This document shows, one piece after another, positions 19,601-45,471 of a DNA stretch of 53,705 nucleotides (within the stretch, counting starts at the first letter, position 1; every line of letters begins with the position of its first letter). The translations under genes were made by a program, and so were the position numbers. Origin of the DNA: Magnetococcales bacterium DCbin4 (lineage in GTDB: Bacteria > Pseudomonadota > Magnetococcia > Magnetococcales > UBA8363). The stretch covers positions 1 to 53,705 of the forward strand of contig PEAN01000025.1 in the NCBI GenBank assembly GCA_002753735.1, read 5' to 3'. The notes below the pieces were generated by a model. It ran no database searches. It saw only the letters and a program-made list of their open reading frames with translations, and had not been told where the DNA came from.

Positions 19601-19794
19601 CGATAACGCCTTTTCAAACTCAAGCAGAAATTGGAAGAACAAACTCCCTGCGCATTGAACCGTGATTGGGGTTTGGTTGTGTAAAAGGTGCAATATATTT
19701 ACCTTCTCAAGACGAATCCAGCTTTTGATTGCAGGACACGGGCGTAACACACTCATGCACCTGGTCCGTGTTTAACGAAATTGCCACCAGGACT

Positions 19795-19862
19795 TTGATT
19801 TTGATTCTTATTTTTGCATCCCCCACAGGTGGGCTGGGGGATCAGAGCCCCAAGGTTTTCCT
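19795..19862 (-). repeat. Diverged dispersed repeat (copy 5)
   Basis: On the minus strand it reads AAAACCTTGGGGCTCTGATC, then CCCCCAGCCCACC and TGTGGGGGATG, flanked by ATCAAAATC blocks like the other copies. The hairpin is longer and imperfect. The rest of the gap from 19863 to 20315 holds no convincing gene. Confidence 0.4.
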
Positions 19863-29567: not shown

Positions 29568-29767
29568 ACCTTCAAGGAACATGACCAGGCCATCGGATCG
29601 GCAGCTCTGATCCGCGACGTGACCGAGGAAAAAAAGATCAAAGAACAACTCAACGAAATCATCACCAAAGCCCCATTTGGCATCATCGTCATCGATGATC
29701 AGGGAAGGGTTCGGGTGTTCAATCCGGAATCATCCCGCCTTTTCGGATACACCACCACTGAAATTCA
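29568..29767 (+). pseudogene. PAS-domain fragment of a sensor kinase
   Basis: About 65 codons read GSAALIRDVTEEKKIKEQL, then PFGIIVIDDQGRVRVFNPES and RLFGYTTTEI: the end of one PAC motif and the first half of the next PAS domain. It breaks off at about 29766, exactly where the opposite-strand GGDEF pseudogene ends. The closest relative in the window is the PAS region of the kinase at 32020-34068. Confidence 0.7.
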
Positions 29768-30658
29768 ACCAACTCCGCCGGAATCACGGCGACACGACAC
29801 GGGTTCCGCTTCCGCCTGGACTACCCGGTTTCTGCCCATCTCTTTGGCGCGGTACAACGCCTGATCCGCCCTGGCGATCAAATGTTCCGGAAACCTCAGC
29901 ATCGTCGCCACCCCAAAGCTGGCAGTGACCCGTCCCACCTCGGGAAACACATGCGCTCCCATGGCATGGTGTAACCGTTGCGCAATGTCAAAAGCTTTTT
30001 CTCCAACCGCCCCGGGGAGCAGAAGCAAAAATCCCTCCCCCCCATAACGGACCAGGAGATCACTCCTGCGGCTGCAACTTTTGAACAGATCCGCCGACTC
30101 CTTGAGGACCAGATCACCCGCATGATGCCCGAAGGTATCGTTGACGTTCTTGATAATGATCAATATCGAACAGGATCACCGACAAAGGCTGTCCTCCCCG
30201 TTGCAGCTTCGCCGACTCCAGGGCAAAAACCGCATCGAGGATACGCCGCCGAAACAACCCCGTCAGGGAATCCTGGACCGAAAAAATCCGGATGCGTGTC
30301 GCCACCATCCCTTTTTCAATCTGGGCCACCAGATCCTCAAGGTCATACGGCTTGCGAAAATAAACATCGGCCCCGGCGCGCAAACCCTCGACAATACCAC
30401 CATCGCGCCCCGTCAGAATGATGATATGAAATTGAGTGGGTCGGCCCGGAACAAACGGCAAGATTCATAACCATCGATCCCCGGCATCATGAGGTCAGTC
30501 AGCACCACGTCGAAGGTATCCCGTTCCGCAAGTTTCAGCGCGGCGGCGGCACAGGCAATCCCTTCGACCTGCTCCCTCCCGAATACCCTGCCCAACTGTC
30601 GCACCAAAGGTTCAAGAACTTGGCCAACATCGTCATCGACCACCTGAATCTTGCCCAT
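29765..30658 (-). pseudogene. Receiver-GGDEF response regulator broken by two frameshifts
   Basis: A PleD-like response regulator. The start MGKIQVVDDD (ATG 30658) overlaps the end of the upstream regulator gene by 26 bases. The receiver domain (phospho-Asp in DVVLTDLMMPG) shifts frame near 30437 (expected ADPTQFHIIILTGRDG; one base missing), continues to FRKPYDLEDL, then DSLTGLF opens the GGDEF domain, and a second shift near 30150 (one extra base in the FDIDHFKNVND stretch) moves the rest (NDTFGHHAGDLVLK) to another frame. The active loop reads GGEGF instead of GGDEF/GGEEF, so even the ungapped protein would be a doubtful cyclase. The two shifts are of opposite sign. Either a decayed gene or sequence errors. 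Confidence 0.75.
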
Positions 30659-31256
30659 TCTCCCCCGTATGGGATACGTACGACTCAATCGCTTTAATGG
30701 CGGCAATCAGGTTTTGTCCCAGATTGCGTGAGGATGCATGGATTTCCCGTACCGCGGCTTCGTTACCGGTTATACGGTCGGAGGCGGCAAAAATGGTACG
30801 ACTGTTGGCGGAGGCGAGATTGAGATGTTCCTTGACCACTTCCAAGGTTTTACGCAGATGCGCCAGTTCATGATTCATGGAAATACCGACCGCACGCCGT
30901 ATTTTCTGGTCCAGTTCATTGAGATTGACCGGTTTGGAAAGAAAATCGGTCCCCCGCGACTTCATGAACTCGACCGCCACATCGACGGAACCAACGCCCG
31001 TAATCATGATCACCGGCATTTCAGGAAACTTGGCGCGAATCCGGTGGAACAACTCCAGACCATCGACAAAAGGCATATGATAATCGGTGATCACCACATC
31101 GATGGGAATCTCCTTGAGGATGGCAAACGCCCCGACTGCCGTCTCGCTGGTATGCACATCATAACCCAACCGGGTGAGGGCACGCACGACCGAGGTCAAT
31201 TCTTCCTTGACCATGTCATCCACGAGAAGCACCCGTCCTTCCCTTTTATCCTCCAT
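30633..31256 (-). CDS. Response regulator (receiver domain plus helical C-terminus)
   Basis: 207 residues. The receiver domain about 8-125 has the acidic pair Asp13/Asp14, phospho-acceptor Asp58 in VVITDYHMP, Thr in MITG and Lys in SKPVNL, so it is complete. The C-terminal about 80 residues form a coiled helix with no DNA-binding or enzymatic domain, so output is by protein contact. It lies downstream of a truncated receiver gene and a repeat, and two histidine kinases follow on the same strand, possible partners. The start ATG at 31256 has GAGG-like purines upstream. Confidence 0.85.
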   Translation of the reverse strand: MEDKREGRVLLVDDMVKEELTSVVRALTRLGYDVHTSETAVGAFAILKEIPIDVVITDYHMPFVDGLELFHRIRAKFPEMPVIMITGVGSVDVAVEFMKSRGTDFLSKPVNLNELDQKIRRAVGISMNHELAHLRKTLEVVKEHLNLASANSRTIFAASDRITGNEAAVREIHASSRNLGQNLIAAIKAIESYVSHTGENGQDSGGR

Positions 31257-31305: not shown

Positions 31306-31590
31306 TCAACGAGACCCCGATCCCACATCATCAACAAGTTCGACCCAACTGACCCGCGTTTCCATCGCAAAATGATCCTCCATACCAACGCCAACACCCG
31401 CCAGACGCAGGCGTTCCAGCTCCTCTTCGAACTGAAGCCATTTTTTCTTCAGATCGGCATGCTCTTGTTTCAGGGTGTACTGTTTTTTGGATTCGAGCAA
31501 ACCTTTTTTGACCACAGCGATCAATTCTTCTATCGCACAGGGTTTGTGCAGGTAGACATCCGCCCCGACTCCCAAACCTTCCGGCTTCTG
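31306..31590 (-). pseudogene. C-terminal half of a receiver-domain protein, truncated by a repeat
   Basis: About 95 codons starting GLGVGADVYLHKPCAIEELI (last beta strand, conserved Lys and helix 5 of a receiver), followed by a coiled coil (KQEHADLKKKWLQFEEELER). The N-terminal half with the phospho-Asp is gone; upstream the frame runs straight into the dispersed repeat at about 31593. The repeat apparently arrived with, or caused, the deletion. Confidence 0.75.
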
Positions 31591-31592
31591 CT

Positions 31593-31720
31593 CTGTCACA
31601 TTCGTTAACTGGAAAGAATGGTTGACAGTTGACTGATATGTATAAAAATATTGAAAGAAAAAAGGGGGCTTGAGGGATTGCCCCCAGGGTTTTGATTCTG
31701 ATTTTGTTTTTCCACGCGCC
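31593..31720 (-). repeat. Dispersed repeat, copy 6a (full length, left arm of the inverted pair)
   Basis: On the minus strand: AATCAAAACCCTGGGGGC, then AATCCCTCAAGCCCCC, TTTTTTCTTTCAATATT, ATATCAGTCAACTGTC, and a right end AACGAATGTGACAGAG. GGGGGC/GCCCCC with a T6 run is a clear intrinsic-terminator shape. Confidence 0.85.
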
Positions 31721-31810
31721 CCTTGACCCGAAGCAAGATTTCCGCGCGGTTTTTGCGGGAATCTTGCGCAGGGGCGAGCCTTGGTCCCGGCCTTTTCGCA
31801 AAAAACGCAT
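31721..31810. repeat. Inner palindrome between the two inverted repeat copies
   Basis: GCAAGATTTCCGC (31733-31745) pairs with GCGGGAATCTTGC (31756-31768) with one mismatch. CGCCCC and GGGGCG extend the stem. With the flanking copies this makes a nested inverted repeat of about 330 bases. Confidence 0.7.
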
Positions 31811-31925
31811 GGCGCGTGAAAAACAAAATCAAAGTCCTGGGGGCAATCCCTCAAGCCCCCTTTTTTATTTCAATATTTTTATATATATCAGTTAATTGAC
31901 AGTCATTCTATCCAGTTGATGAATC
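31811..31925 (+). repeat. Dispersed repeat, copy 6b (full length, right arm of the inverted pair)
   Basis: Starts GGCGCGTGAAAAACAAAAT, which is the inverse of the end of copy 6a with one base difference. It continues with CCTGGGGGCAATCCCTCAAG, CCCCCTTTTTT, AATATTTTTATATATATCAG, and ends GATGAATCTGACAAAG. It sits upstream of, and convergent with, the kinase at 32020-34068. Confidence 0.85.
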
Positions 31926-32019
31926 TGACAAAGTTGAAATATGAATCCCATCATGAAATACTCATCGCCAACGTATTCAGGCTATCACGGCCCTCCCAAG
32001 GTAGCAAACGAAACCCCGA

Positions 32020-34068
32020 TCAAAGTATCAAAGGCATGTCGATATGAATAGACATGCCGCAACCCGGCGCACTCTGACACGAGATACCCCCCCCCAAGGT
32101 CTGAACCGCCAGATTGTAGACGATATGCATCCCCAGGCCACTGCCACCGAGATCCCGCCGGGTCGTGAAGAACGGTTCAAAAACATGGGCCCGAACTTCG
32201 TCGGTCATCCCCTTGCCATTGTCACAGTAGAAGAAATGGAGGCGATCCTTTTGCGTATGAAATTCCAAGGTGATCCTTCCTTCTGCGCCGGGATCGAAGG
32301 CATGGATCCTGGAATTATTGATCAGATTGATCACGATCTGGGAAAAAGCTCCGGGATCGCTGCGAATCACCAGGTCGTTGGCACAGACCACGACCACCAC
32401 CAACCGGGTGGGCTTGAGTTCGTGATGCAGCGTCAAAATGGCCGACTCGACATATTCCCGCAGATTGAACTGGCGCAGTTTTTCGCTGGACTGATCCACC
32501 GCCACCGACTTGAAACTGCGTACCAGATCTGCGGCCCGCTCCAGGTTGGTCCGGATCAATTCCGCAAGGCGTTTGGAAGAAGACAGATACTCTTTTAATT
32601 CTTCTTCGGAAATCCCCTCCTGATTCAACAACTGCCAAAATCTATTGGTCCGTTCCTCCAATTCCGAGGCTGCGGTGACACCGATTCCCACCGGGGAATT
32701 GATCTCATGCGCCACCCCGGCCACAATGCTGCCCAGTCCCGCCATTTTTTCCGATTGCACCAATTCGGAATACAACCGTTTCTCTTCCGAAATGTCGGCG
32801 ATCATCCCGACGAACGAAAGCTTCCCTTCCATCCACATTCGATTGACCGCCAGACGAATCGGAAACATGCGACCATCCTTGCGAATCGCCTCTGCCTCGA
32901 CCACCGTCTTGCCAGAAACATCACCATCCACCATTTCGGAATGGTCCCTGGAAGATTCACCCAATGCCCGCTTGATGCCAAAGGGAACCAGTTCCACCAC
33001 CGGCCTGCCGATGACTTCCTTCCGACTGAAACCGAAAAGATGCTCCGCCGCCGCATTGAACATCCCGATACGTTCCTCCGCATCCGCCACAACGATCCCG
33101 AAGGGAGCACTCTCGATGATGATCCGTTCCAGTTGGACCACTTCATCGAACAACAACCCTTCCTCCGCCTTGCTGACGATCATGGAGATGAAGGAGGAGC
33201 CATCTCCCCGGGTCATCTGGTTGGTCAGCAAACGGATGGGAAACCGGGTGCCATCCCGACGTCTGGCATCGGTTTCAAAAGGCATCCGCCCCAACAGGTG
33301 GCGTTCTTCATCCCGAGGAATCTGATTCAACTTCTCATATCGGGGATCAGCCCGCCGGGAGGGGATCAGTTGCACGATATCCTGACCAAGGATTTCTCCA
33401 CCCCCATAGCCGAACAACCGTTCCGCGACCGAATTGAACAGTTTGATGGACCCGTTCCCATCAACGGTGATGATGCCACATGGGGCATGATCCACCACCA
33501 TCCGGAGCATCTCTTCGTGACGACGCATTTCCTGTTCCGCCATCACCTTTTTGAGGACATCCGCCACCATGGAAGCAGCCGATTCCAGAAAACGGATCCG
33601 CTCCAGGTCCCCAACATCATCCTCATATTGCCAGTACAGCACGATCAACCCTTCGACCTTGCCTTCCACCAGGATGGGGACGTTGAAAAGCCCATGTGCA
33701 TGATCCCGTCCCTGGATGATCGCCTGACACTCATGGGGCGAAGAAGCGAACTCCATCGTCCCCGACAAGGCTGCCCGGCCACACAAACAATGTCCGACAG
33801 GAATTCGGGAACAAAGGGTATGCACCATTTCCTTCATATTGCGGGATGCCACCTGTACCAGATCCCGCCGCTGTTCATCCACCAAAAAGGCGGCCCCCAT
33901 GTTTTTCACTCTTAGAAATGAAAATCCGGGCAACACTTCCAGCATTTCCACCAATAATTCTCTTGGATTTTTTGCCGCCAAAGCCATTCTGAGCAGGACC
34001 CCGGTGGCCTGATGAAGATCAAGTTCCCGGTGCAATCGATCCATTTCGACCGTCAAATCGGAACTCAT
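32020..34068 (-). CDS. GAF-PAS-PAS sensor histidine kinase (cytoplasmic)
   Basis: 682 residues, no membrane segment. Layout: N-terminal helix, GAF about 20-180 (GHCLCGRAALSG, HGLFNVPILVEG), PAS1 about 187-310 (APCGIITVDGNGSIKLFNS), PAS2 about 320-445 (APFGIVVADAEERIGMFNAA), HisKA-like about 455-530 with phospho-His in VAGVAHEINSPVGI, and HATPase about 555-682 (N box NLINNSRIHA, G1 CDNGKGM, G2 GGSGLGMHIVYNL). Start: ATG at 34068 with GGGGGAGG about 11 bases upstream; a GTG at 34116 is in frame. Likely an intracellular redox, gas or metabolite sensor with no attached receiver. The next gene upstream is the receiver-kinase at 34129-35472, so the two probably form one pathway. Confidence 0.9.
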   Translation of the reverse strand: MSSDLTVEMDRLHRELDLHQATGVLLRMALAAKNPRELLVEMLEVLPGFSFLRVKNMGAAFLVDEQRRDLVQVASRNMKEMVHTLCSRIPVGHCLCGRAALSGTMEFASSPHECQAIIQGRDHAHGLFNVPILVEGKVEGLIVLYWQYEDDVGDLERIRFLESAASMVADVLKKVMAEQEMRRHEEMLRMVVDHAPCGIITVDGNGSIKLFNSVAERLFGYGGGEILGQDIVQLIPSRRADPRYEKLNQIPRDEERHLLGRMPFETDARRRDGTRFPIRLLTNQMTRGDGSSFISMIVSKAEEGLLFDEVVQLERIIIESAPFGIVVADAEERIGMFNAAAEHLFGFSRKEVIGRPVVELVPFGIKRALGESSRDHSEMVDGDVSGKTVVEAEAIRKDGRMFPIRLAVNRMWMEGKLSFVGMIADISEEKRLYSELVQSEKMAGLGSIVAGVAHEINSPVGIGVTAASELEERTNRFWQLLNQEGISEEELKEYLSSSKRLAELIRTNLERAADLVRSFKSVAVDQSSEKLRQFNLREYVESAILTLHHELKPTRLVVVVVCANDLVIRSDPGAFSQIVINLINNSRIHAFDPGAEGRITLEFHTQKDRLHFFYCDNGKGMTDEVRAHVFEPFFTTRRDLGGSGLGMHIVYNLAVQTLGGGISCQSAPGCGMSIHIDMPLIL

Positions 34069-34128
34069 CGTCAACAAACCTCCCCCGCTCCGCGACCTTG
34101 ACCCCTGACAGGACACTCAAACCTTCAT

Positions 34129-43583: not shown

Positions 43584-45230
43584 ATGACCCGAACTCCTTG
43601 CAGACCCATCCATCATGGCCATCGGATCGTCTCTGATTTTCTGGTGATCGGCGGTGGAGTCGCCGGTTTGGATCTGTCACTGCGGCTGGCGGAATTCGGC
43701 TCGGTCCAGATCATCACCAAAACCGAGGCGGGCGAATCCAACAGCAGCTACGCCCAGGGGGGAATCGCCGCCGTTCTGGATTCCGATGACCATTTCGAAC
43801 TGCACATCGAAGATACGCTGCATGCCGGAGCGGGTCTGTGTCATGAAGATGCGGTCCGGCTTGTCGTTGAAAATGGTGCCCGGTCGATTCATCGCCTGAT
43901 CCAACTGGGGGTTCCTTTTACGCGGACACCCGAGGGTCCCTACCATCTGACCCGGGAGGGGGGGCATTCCAACCGGAGGGTGGTTCATTCCGCCGATGCC
44001 ACCGGCAAGGCGGTGATCCAAACCCTGCTTGAACGGGTCCAGCAGCATCCCAACATTGAACTGTTTCAAAATCACCTGGCCATCGACCTGATCACTGCGC
44101 ACAAGACCGGTCGCTTCGCCCCCGATCATCCCAACCGTTGCCTGGGGTGTTATACCCTGGACATGAAGCATGGCCAGGTCATCACCCAGCAGGCCCGATT
44201 CACCACTCTGGCCACCGGGGGCGCCGGGAAGGTCTATCTGTACACCTCCAACCCCGACATTGCCACGGGTGATGGCATCGCCATGGCCTACCGTGCGGGT
44301 TGCCGGGTCGCCAATATGGAATTCATCCAGTTCCACCCCACCTGCCTGTTCCATCCCAAGGCCAAATCGTTTCTCATTTCCGAGGCGGTCCGTGGCGAAG
44401 GTGGGATTTTGATCCTGGCCAACGGCGACCGGTTCATGAAGCGCCATCATGAGCGACTGGAATTAGCCCCCCGCGACATTGTCGCCCGCGCCATCGACTT
44501 TGAAATGAAACGGACCGGTGATGATTGTGTCTTTCTCGACATCACCGCCAAGGGGGAGACGTTCATTCGCGAGCATTTCCCCAACATTCACGCCAAATGC
44601 CTTGATTTGGGGATCGACATGGTACGGGAACCGATTCCCGTCGTCCCGGCGGCACATTATACCTGTGGCGGTGTCCTCACCCAACTCGACGGCACCACCG
44701 ACATTGAAAATCTATTCGCCCTGGGAGAGGTCAGCCATACCGGTCTGCACGGGGCCAACCGTCTGGCATCGAACAGCCTGCTGGAATGCATGGTATTTTC
44801 CGAGGCCGTCGAGCGGACCATCCGTCACAGGTTGAACGACGGCAACAGCGACACCGCGCATCACATGCCCCTCCCCCCCTGGGACAGTTTCGACACCGAC
44901 CAGTGTGAAGAAGCGGTCCTCATTTCCCATAACTGGGATGAGATTCGCCGCTTCATGAGCAACTATGTGGGTATTGTCCGTTCCGATTCCCGCCTGGCGC
45001 GTGCGCGCCGCCGCATCGAACTGTTGCAGCAGGAGATCAACGAATATTATTGGAACTGCCGTGTCAGCCGCGACCTCCTGGAACTGCGCAACATTGCCCT
45101 GGTTGCCTCGTTGATCATTCGCAGCGCCATCCATCGCAAGGAAAGCCGGGGCCTGCATTTCAACACCAACCATCCTGAACGCGATGATGTCCAGTGGGCC
45201 AAGGATACCATTCTTCCGATCCACCTTTGA
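43584..45230 (+). CDS. nadB: L-aspartate oxidase NadB
   Basis: 548 residues, usual length. FAD-binding SDFLVIGGGVAGLDLSLRLA near the start, then NSSYAQGGIAAVL, HSADATGKAVIQTL, EFIQFHPTCLF, PAAHYTCGGV and HGANRLASNSLLECMVF are diagnostic of NadB within the succinate dehydrogenase/fumarate reductase flavoprotein superfamily. It oxidises L-aspartate to iminoaspartate, the first step of de novo NAD synthesis, and hands it to NadA (not in the window). The C-terminal helical domain is complete. It is divergent from rpoE. A diverged dispersed repeat follows the stop. Confidence 0.97.
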   Translation: MTRTPCRPIHHGHRIVSDFLVIGGGVAGLDLSLRLAEFGSVQIITKTEAGESNSSYAQGGIAAVLDSDDHFELHIEDTLHAGAGLCHEDAVRLVVENGARSIHRLIQLGVPFTRTPEGPYHLTREGGHSNRRVVHSADATGKAVIQTLLERVQQHPNIELFQNHLAIDLITAHKTGRFAPDHPNRCLGCYTLDMKHGQVITQQARFTTLATGGAGKVYLYTSNPDIATGDGIAMAYRAGCRVANMEFIQFHPTCLFHPKAKSFLISEAVRGEGGILILANGDRFMKRHHERLELAPRDIVARAIDFEMKRTGDDCVFLDITAKGETFIREHFPNIHAKCLDLGIDMVREPIPVVPAAHYTCGGVLTQLDGTTDIENLFALGEVSHTGLHGANRLASNSLLECMVFSEAVERTIRHRLNDGNSDTAHHMPLPPWDSFDTDQCEEAVLISHNWDEIRRFMSNYVGIVRSDSRLARARRRIELLQQEINEYYWNCRVSRDLLELRNIALVASLIIRSAIHRKESRGLHFNTNHPERDDVQWAKDTILPIHL

Positions 45231-45235
45231 TTCCA

Positions 45236-45335
45236 TCCCGTCACAATCATCCACTGGAAAGGATGGCTGACAGTTGCCTGATATCTATGAGAATACTGGA
45301 GAAGTGGGTCTTTGGGACATCCCCCTGCCCCCTTA
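45236..45335 (-). repeat. Diverged dispersed repeat (copy 7)
   Basis: On the minus strand: GGGGGATGTCCCAAAGACCC, then TATTCTCATAGATATCAGG, CAACTGTCAGCCATCC, TTTCCAGTGGATGATTGTGA. This lines up with the full-length copies at 31593-31925 over about 100 bases with scattered changes. It sits between nadB and the acylphosphatase gene. Confidence 0.65.
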
Positions 45336-45471
45336 TTCCTTCAATGATTCCCTGAACATCGATCATCCCTGATTGATGAATGTGACCACATGGAATAAGG
45401 CAACATCAAATGATTCCAGGAACCTTAAACATCACCCACACTTGTTCCTGATCCGAACGAAAGGGGAAACC

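Follow-up and report, generated by a model that had tools for sequence, protein, structure and literature searches.

The inverted pair beside a damaged response-regulator receiver gene in the window (the whole analysed stretch of 53,705 nucleotides from Magnetococcales bacterium DCbin4) belongs to a dispersed family of non-coding quasi-palindromes, of which it is one member with internal deletions. It is not, as a sequence-only reading had proposed, a set of two full-length copies of a repeat facing away from a central palindrome. We consider it probable that the family is a non-autonomous, multi-hairpin DNA repeat of a single Magnetococcales genus, which has spread mainly into gaps downstream of genes and whose pairing is kept at the level of DNA.

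The element and its damaged neighbour

Inverted arms of 120 nt each are present at 31586-31705 and 31819-31938 (Table 1). They had been described as matching nearly perfectly; without gaps they are 85% complementary, and with gaps over the whole length their likeness is 71%. The palindrome does occupy the interval 31593-31925 originally assigned to it, but its true ends lie near 31586 and 31938. The fold predicted for these 333 originally assigned bases on the plus strand has an energy of -200.7 kcal/mol (z = -18.4), and none of 100 shuffled sequences was as stable. Since the element aligns end to end with L009, a fuller copy from the same genome, minus two large inner stretches of 75 and 74 nt, it is to be regarded as a single shortened element. 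Both deletions are located at short repeats, one at the remnant of hairpin H2 and the other just after it. The hairpin previously taken for the centre of the palindrome exists, but it corresponds to H1, a side hairpin of the full element. No gene is credited to the element, although open reading frames do cross it. The idea of two separate copies was rejected because the unit itself is a palindrome over its whole length, as is usual in the family (20 of 27 loci examined, 13 of which had been picked for having paired matches). A second whole but degenerate copy lies at 45226-45385 of the window, with an outer arm of type 1 on the left, one of type 2 on the right and a minimal centre; half modules of the family occur at 62-126, near the contig start, and at 805-858 and 19780-19818.

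Table 1. Features of the quasi-palindromic element and of the surrounding operon in the window
Feature	Position	Strand	Basis or remark
Whole quasi-palindromic element, shortened copy	31586..31938	.	353 bp; arms, self-palindrome in L048, alignment to L009
End sequences of the element			TTCTACTTTGTCACATTC, AATTATTGAAAG
Left outer module, type 1 (TTCTGCTCTGTCACATTC...)	31586..31649	.	89% match to the type defined on other copies
Left end module (ATTGAAAGAAAAAAGGGGGC...GCCCCC...CACGCGCC)	31650..31720	.	sequence; module counted genome-wide
H1 hairpin	31733..31767	.	stem 31733-31745 (GCAAGATTTCCGC) / 31755-31767 (GCGGGAATCTTGC); helix 4 of family alignment
Remnant of H2 (5' strand, GTCCCGGCCTTTTCGC)	31784..31799	.	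alignment with L009
Right end module, mirrors the left one	31809..31874	.	L009 alignment; arm pairing
Right outer module, type 1	31875..31938	.	86% to typed outer module
End module of full copies (ATTGAAAGAAAAAAGGGG...CCCC...TTTTGATTTTG...CACGCGCC)			copies fetched from own genome
PAS/histidine kinase, upstream in operon, complete	32020..34116	-	named by eye from sequence
Kinase 3' intergenic stretch	31939-32019		retained, recognisable piece of kinase-receiver gap
C-terminal remnant of response-regulator receiver gene, starting at ...PEGLGVGADVYL, near codon 95 of intact relatives	31306..31584	-	first ~94 codons missing
RR2, next response-regulator gene of operon, intact	30633..31256	-

The adjoining receiver gene had been said to lack its N-terminal half, and comparison with intact relatives bears this out, as only the C-terminal half is retained. 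An empty site, which the earlier reading had suggested looking for, is found in a genome of the same genus (G002, L121), where kinase, intact receiver, RR2 and an RR3/GGDEF gene follow each other without the element; the receiver is also intact in G006 (L120), G047 (L122) and G039 (L091). The order in the window is kinase, gap piece, element and receiver from about codon 95. Comparison with these empty sites shows that the element lies past the stop codon of the histidine kinase of a two-component operon and takes the place of some 94 receiver codons. Relocation of the missing N-terminal half to the side of another element was rejected, as no orphan half was found beside another copy among the listed coordinates of 36 matches in the own genome. 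A search for named relatives by means of the kinase returned two distant loci only. The RR3/GGDEF gene of the window (29765-30706) is split over frames and contains internal stops, which reflects either decay or sequencing error. G006 carries another copy (L093:1-78), at the start of a contig and directly behind the kinase orthologue, and the kinase-receiver gap may have been hit twice, independently or otherwise.

Architecture and distribution of the family

Full members of about 400-520 bp consist of outer arms around an end module, followed by nested hairpins and then by the mirror image; the complete order is outer module, end module, H1, a stem bearing H2-H3-H4, H5, and then end and outer modules again as mirror images. 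Across the family the unit measures approximately 140-520 bp, and the arms of the whole palindrome are about 200 nt long. The best full copy, L009 on contig C23, is a 519-bp self-palindrome sharing 82% identity with its reverse complement. Among the full copies the centre occurs in both orientations. Outer modules are of several kinds that assort differently on the left and right sides, that is they form an interchangeable mosaic, and L179 carries two of them in series on one side; the assortment and this series suggest nesting of, or recombination between, copies.

The paired arrangement recurs in the own genome and in relatives, as the sequence-only reading had proposed checking. The own genome, a 4.5 Mb draft in 148 contigs, contains at least 100 matches to the repeat. 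The end module, searched as a pattern of 22 letters with at most one mismatch, occurs there 363 times, as against zero for the reversed-pattern control. The rest of the genus, seven genomes, has 15, 70, 269, 319, 14, 123 and 51 occurrences, so that all eight are positive, and the copies lie scattered between genes. Outside the genus, two of 53 other genomes gave three one-mismatch hits together. A second genus of the order (g7) possesses a variant end module whose loop contains ATTCATC or ATTCCTC; this variant is present in 10 of 11 genomes with up to 341 copies and gave single hits in four other genomes outside g7. This sister family (CTGGGGGATTCATCCCCCAG, loci L059-L069 and L220-L229) reaches its 341 copies in G046, and the stem of its end module varies by paired changes (GGGGG/CCCCC to GGGAG/CTCCC).

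Among 100 of the 363 module places that were listed, 12 neighbouring pairs no more than 450 bp apart face outward (minus then plus) and none face inward. Furthermore, for 25 of these 100 modules the distance to a contig start, or to the end of a contig of known length, is at most 200 bp. All 25 are oriented as if the contig had broken inside a palindrome, so that many of the seemingly solitary copies are probably palindrome halves. An origin from phages, plasmids or viruses was rejected: the full core had no match in phages or plasmids, and the exact module had none in viral contigs. No description of the palindrome family was found in the open-licence literature. It is a genus-restricted variant of the dispersed bacterial palindromic repeat, undescribed in the open-licence literature that was searched.

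Evidence bearing on movement

The sequence-only reading had regarded the palindrome as a possible mobile unit or hot spot for rearrangement. Dispersal is supported by module copies that run to hundreds across the genus, the empty site at L121 and the mosaic outer arms, whereas no transposase, target duplication or strain-level pair was found that would speak for active movement. The second suggestion holds in part, given the lost receiver codons, the inner stretches deleted at short repeats, and a centre that occurs either way round.

None of 30 cores had direct repeats of at least 6 nt in the 12 bp next to its ends, as compared with 2.9% in crossed flanks. Within 25 bp there were 8 of 30 versus 11.6%, a small excess that may stem from shared outer modules, the exact outer ends being uncertain. 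The interval of contig C48 that was inspected for an autonomous parent (3.4 kb, enclosed by one long outward module pair) contains no such parent but housekeeping-like genes, which by eye look like glmM and infC.

These results bear directly on the possibility that the family is an ordinary MITE, derived from an insertion sequence with a DDE transposase and moved in trans via terminal inverted repeats, a reading that we find conceivable but doubtful. Size and ends would fit, as the elements of 353 bp (window) and 519 bp (L009) are non-coding and bounded by terminal inverted repeats, in line with the limit of about 500 bp or less. In fact, extracts of PMC10969869 characterise MITEs by lengths of up to about 550 bp, AT-rich ends, terminal inverted repeats, intergenic position, predicted stem-loop transcripts and high copy number, all of which resemble the situation here. 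The bacterial MITEs Correia, Chunjie and QMITE1/2 as portrayed in these extracts are likewise non-coding, at most about 550 bp long, mostly intergenic and high in copy number, with inverted-repeat ends and truncated copies, and Chunjie has one copy that interrupts an operon (PMC10969869). However, the unit described here is palindromic throughout with its long arms and does not consist of short terminal repeats around a core, it contains a chain of covarying hairpins, its outer ends are interchangeable modules, and it comes with neither the target duplication within 12 bp that would mark younger copies of a MITE nor, in the one interval inspected, the autonomous copy expected of one.

Position relative to genes

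Gene contexts were determined with a home-made codon-usage caller trained on the window, after removal of duplicates and of elements less than 150 bp from a contig edge. Of the 67 distinct elements that remained, 27 had an uncalled neighbour; the other 40 lie between convergent (17), tandem (22) or divergent (1) genes. An earlier run on 30 loci gave the same trend. As a circular chromosome has equal numbers of convergent and divergent gaps, 17 versus 1 represents a clear bias away from promoters, subject to the reliability of the caller.

The end module shows, by sequence, a GC hairpin and a T run, which in the left module of the window copy follow each other from the inside to the outside. 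A terminator scan found one site where 1.1 were expected and did not flag the end modules, which its loop limit of 8 excludes. The outward-facing modules probably constitute a two-way transcription stop between genes, as judged from these motifs. Terminator-like repeats have a parallel in SPRITE of Streptococcus pneumoniae, which together with RUP and BOX forms clusters in which the elements insert into one another, according to extracts of PMC10969869; the host differs, and the comparison is one of descriptions, not of sequences.

What maintains the pairing

A consensus fold was derived from 16 whole cores of four species (G000, G003, G004 and G006) and comprises 142 pairs in 11 helices. The alignment was made with MAFFT from 16 of 30 complete cores, excluding cores whose centres are not related (L043, L107) as well as incomplete or shortened forms, and six of the 16 cores were reversed beforehand to match like hairpins. 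In this alignment 96.6% of the cells are paired, compared to 89.5% after shuffling and at most 54.5% after sliding, and the covariation score is 0.247 as opposed to 0.118 and at most 0.083, respectively. Fifty of the 142 pairs are altered on both sides, some of them via alignment shift.

These numbers, together with the strong bias to the 3' ends of genes, would also be expected if selection acted on a multi-hairpin RNA copied from the element, such as a terminator working in both directions or a 3'-UTR stabiliser. We think this unlikely. The covariation counts refer to cells and not to events, many changes separate G000/G006 from G003/G004 (half of the rows each) and leave 28 and 11 double-changed pairs within the groups, and in helix 1 some of the 11 double-changed pairs are due to rows that MAFFT placed one column off. 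Furthermore, an excess of G.U pairs in the transcribed direction is absent: G.T and A.C mismatches, counted in gene direction, number 70 versus 58 in 10 elements in tandem context (p = 0.33) and 84 versus 79 in 11 convergent elements. Since the two kinds balance, nothing points to selection on RNA, and in the window no Rfam family reached its gathering score.

Template switching at the DNA level accounts for the paired arms equally well and is the explanation we prefer, because homogenisation of the arms and inversion of the spacer are its very products. Extracts of PMC8794818 and PMC8604942 report that template switching leads to multi-base compensatory changes and to inversion of the spacer between inverted repeats. 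Hairpins maintained in this way share multi-base compensatory changes and an inverted spacer or centre with the elements studied here, the difference being that they represent a mutational process rather than a repeat family (PMC8794818; PMC8604942).

Relation to REPINs and assembly quality

Mobilisation as a REPIN by a REP-associated tyrosine transposase (RAYT) would agree with high-copy intergenic palindromes and with a Y1_Tnp match in seven of the eight genomes of the genus, G000 having a relic only. REP, BIME and REPIN elements are palindromic, mosaic and placed at the 3' ends of genes, as are the elements here. We nevertheless hold this origin to be very improbable. Extracts of PMC3733652 describe REPs as 20-40 bp in length with a GTAG or CGTC tag, whereas the present units of about 140-520 bp are some ten times longer and no such tag was seen by eye at alignment ends or flanks. 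The Y1-transposase loci (L124, L205, L206, L212-L219) are not flanked by a copy of the palindrome element; as matches to the family they contain a single module, at a distance of 1.4 kb, and fragments some 22-31 nt long, and a RAYT flanked by its repeat was thus rejected. At L205, L212 and L215 of G003 the Y1-transposase genes lie near inverted-repeat arrays of their own, which belong to a different palindromic family.

A false fold-back joint of the assembly at the palindrome, by which the earlier reading would have been refuted, is hardly credible even in a draft of 148 contigs with many ending in the element. The arms disagree at 15% of positions, the two flanking stretches adjoin each other in the operon of relatives, and like palindromes are found within a 252-kb contig of G006 (L100) as well as in further assemblies.

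Tolerance of long palindromes and proposed mechanism

Long palindromes are usually unstable or toxic in bacteria. The palindrome nuclease subunit SbcD was found above its family cut-off in none of the eight genomes of the genus, in 22 of 40 others of the order (18 of the 40 thus lack it) and in two of 13 others of the phylum; its absence across the genus counts as a single event. The own genome encodes Mre11-like and Rad50-like proteins, its best match to the SbcC model being weak. Instability of palindromes is also stated in general terms in an extract of PMC7999016. The missing nuclease may be the reason why the genus tolerates such long quasi-palindromes, and the order-wide pattern, although suggestive only, agrees with this idea; the lack of SbcD in 18 of the 40 others of the order and the Mre11/Rad50-like pair that the genus has kept speak against it. 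A span of more than 200 bp was found at one of 12 loci in the SbcD-bearing g7 relatives versus four of 16 distinct interior loci here, a difference that is not significant in so small a sample.

Under the explanation that we favour, a dispersed DNA repeat paired at the DNA level, the repeat would have spread mainly into gaps 3' of genes, and at the present locus it lies after the kinase stop codon in place of the start of the receiver gene. Template switching during replication would copy one arm onto the other, flip the centre and delete hairpins, the outward end modules would act as a two-way stop to transcription between genes, and the absence of SbcD might permit the long quasi-palindromes of the genus. 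A more far-reaching version, which we regard as quite improbable, is that half-kilobase palindromes have colonised the genome of a genus that lost SbcCD and grow there by nesting, in that hairpin units insert, or are copied, into the centres of older palindromes, with arms matched by template switching and a genome-wide two-way barrier between converging genes as the product.

With modules in their hundreds, many of them paired up to half a kilobase, the genus offers a natural test of what limits palindrome length, SbcCD being the candidate, and likewise of whether template switching alone maintains paired stems. It also hints at a reason for the places at which draft assemblies of this group break. 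The family furthermore informs how repeats shape the ends of genes.
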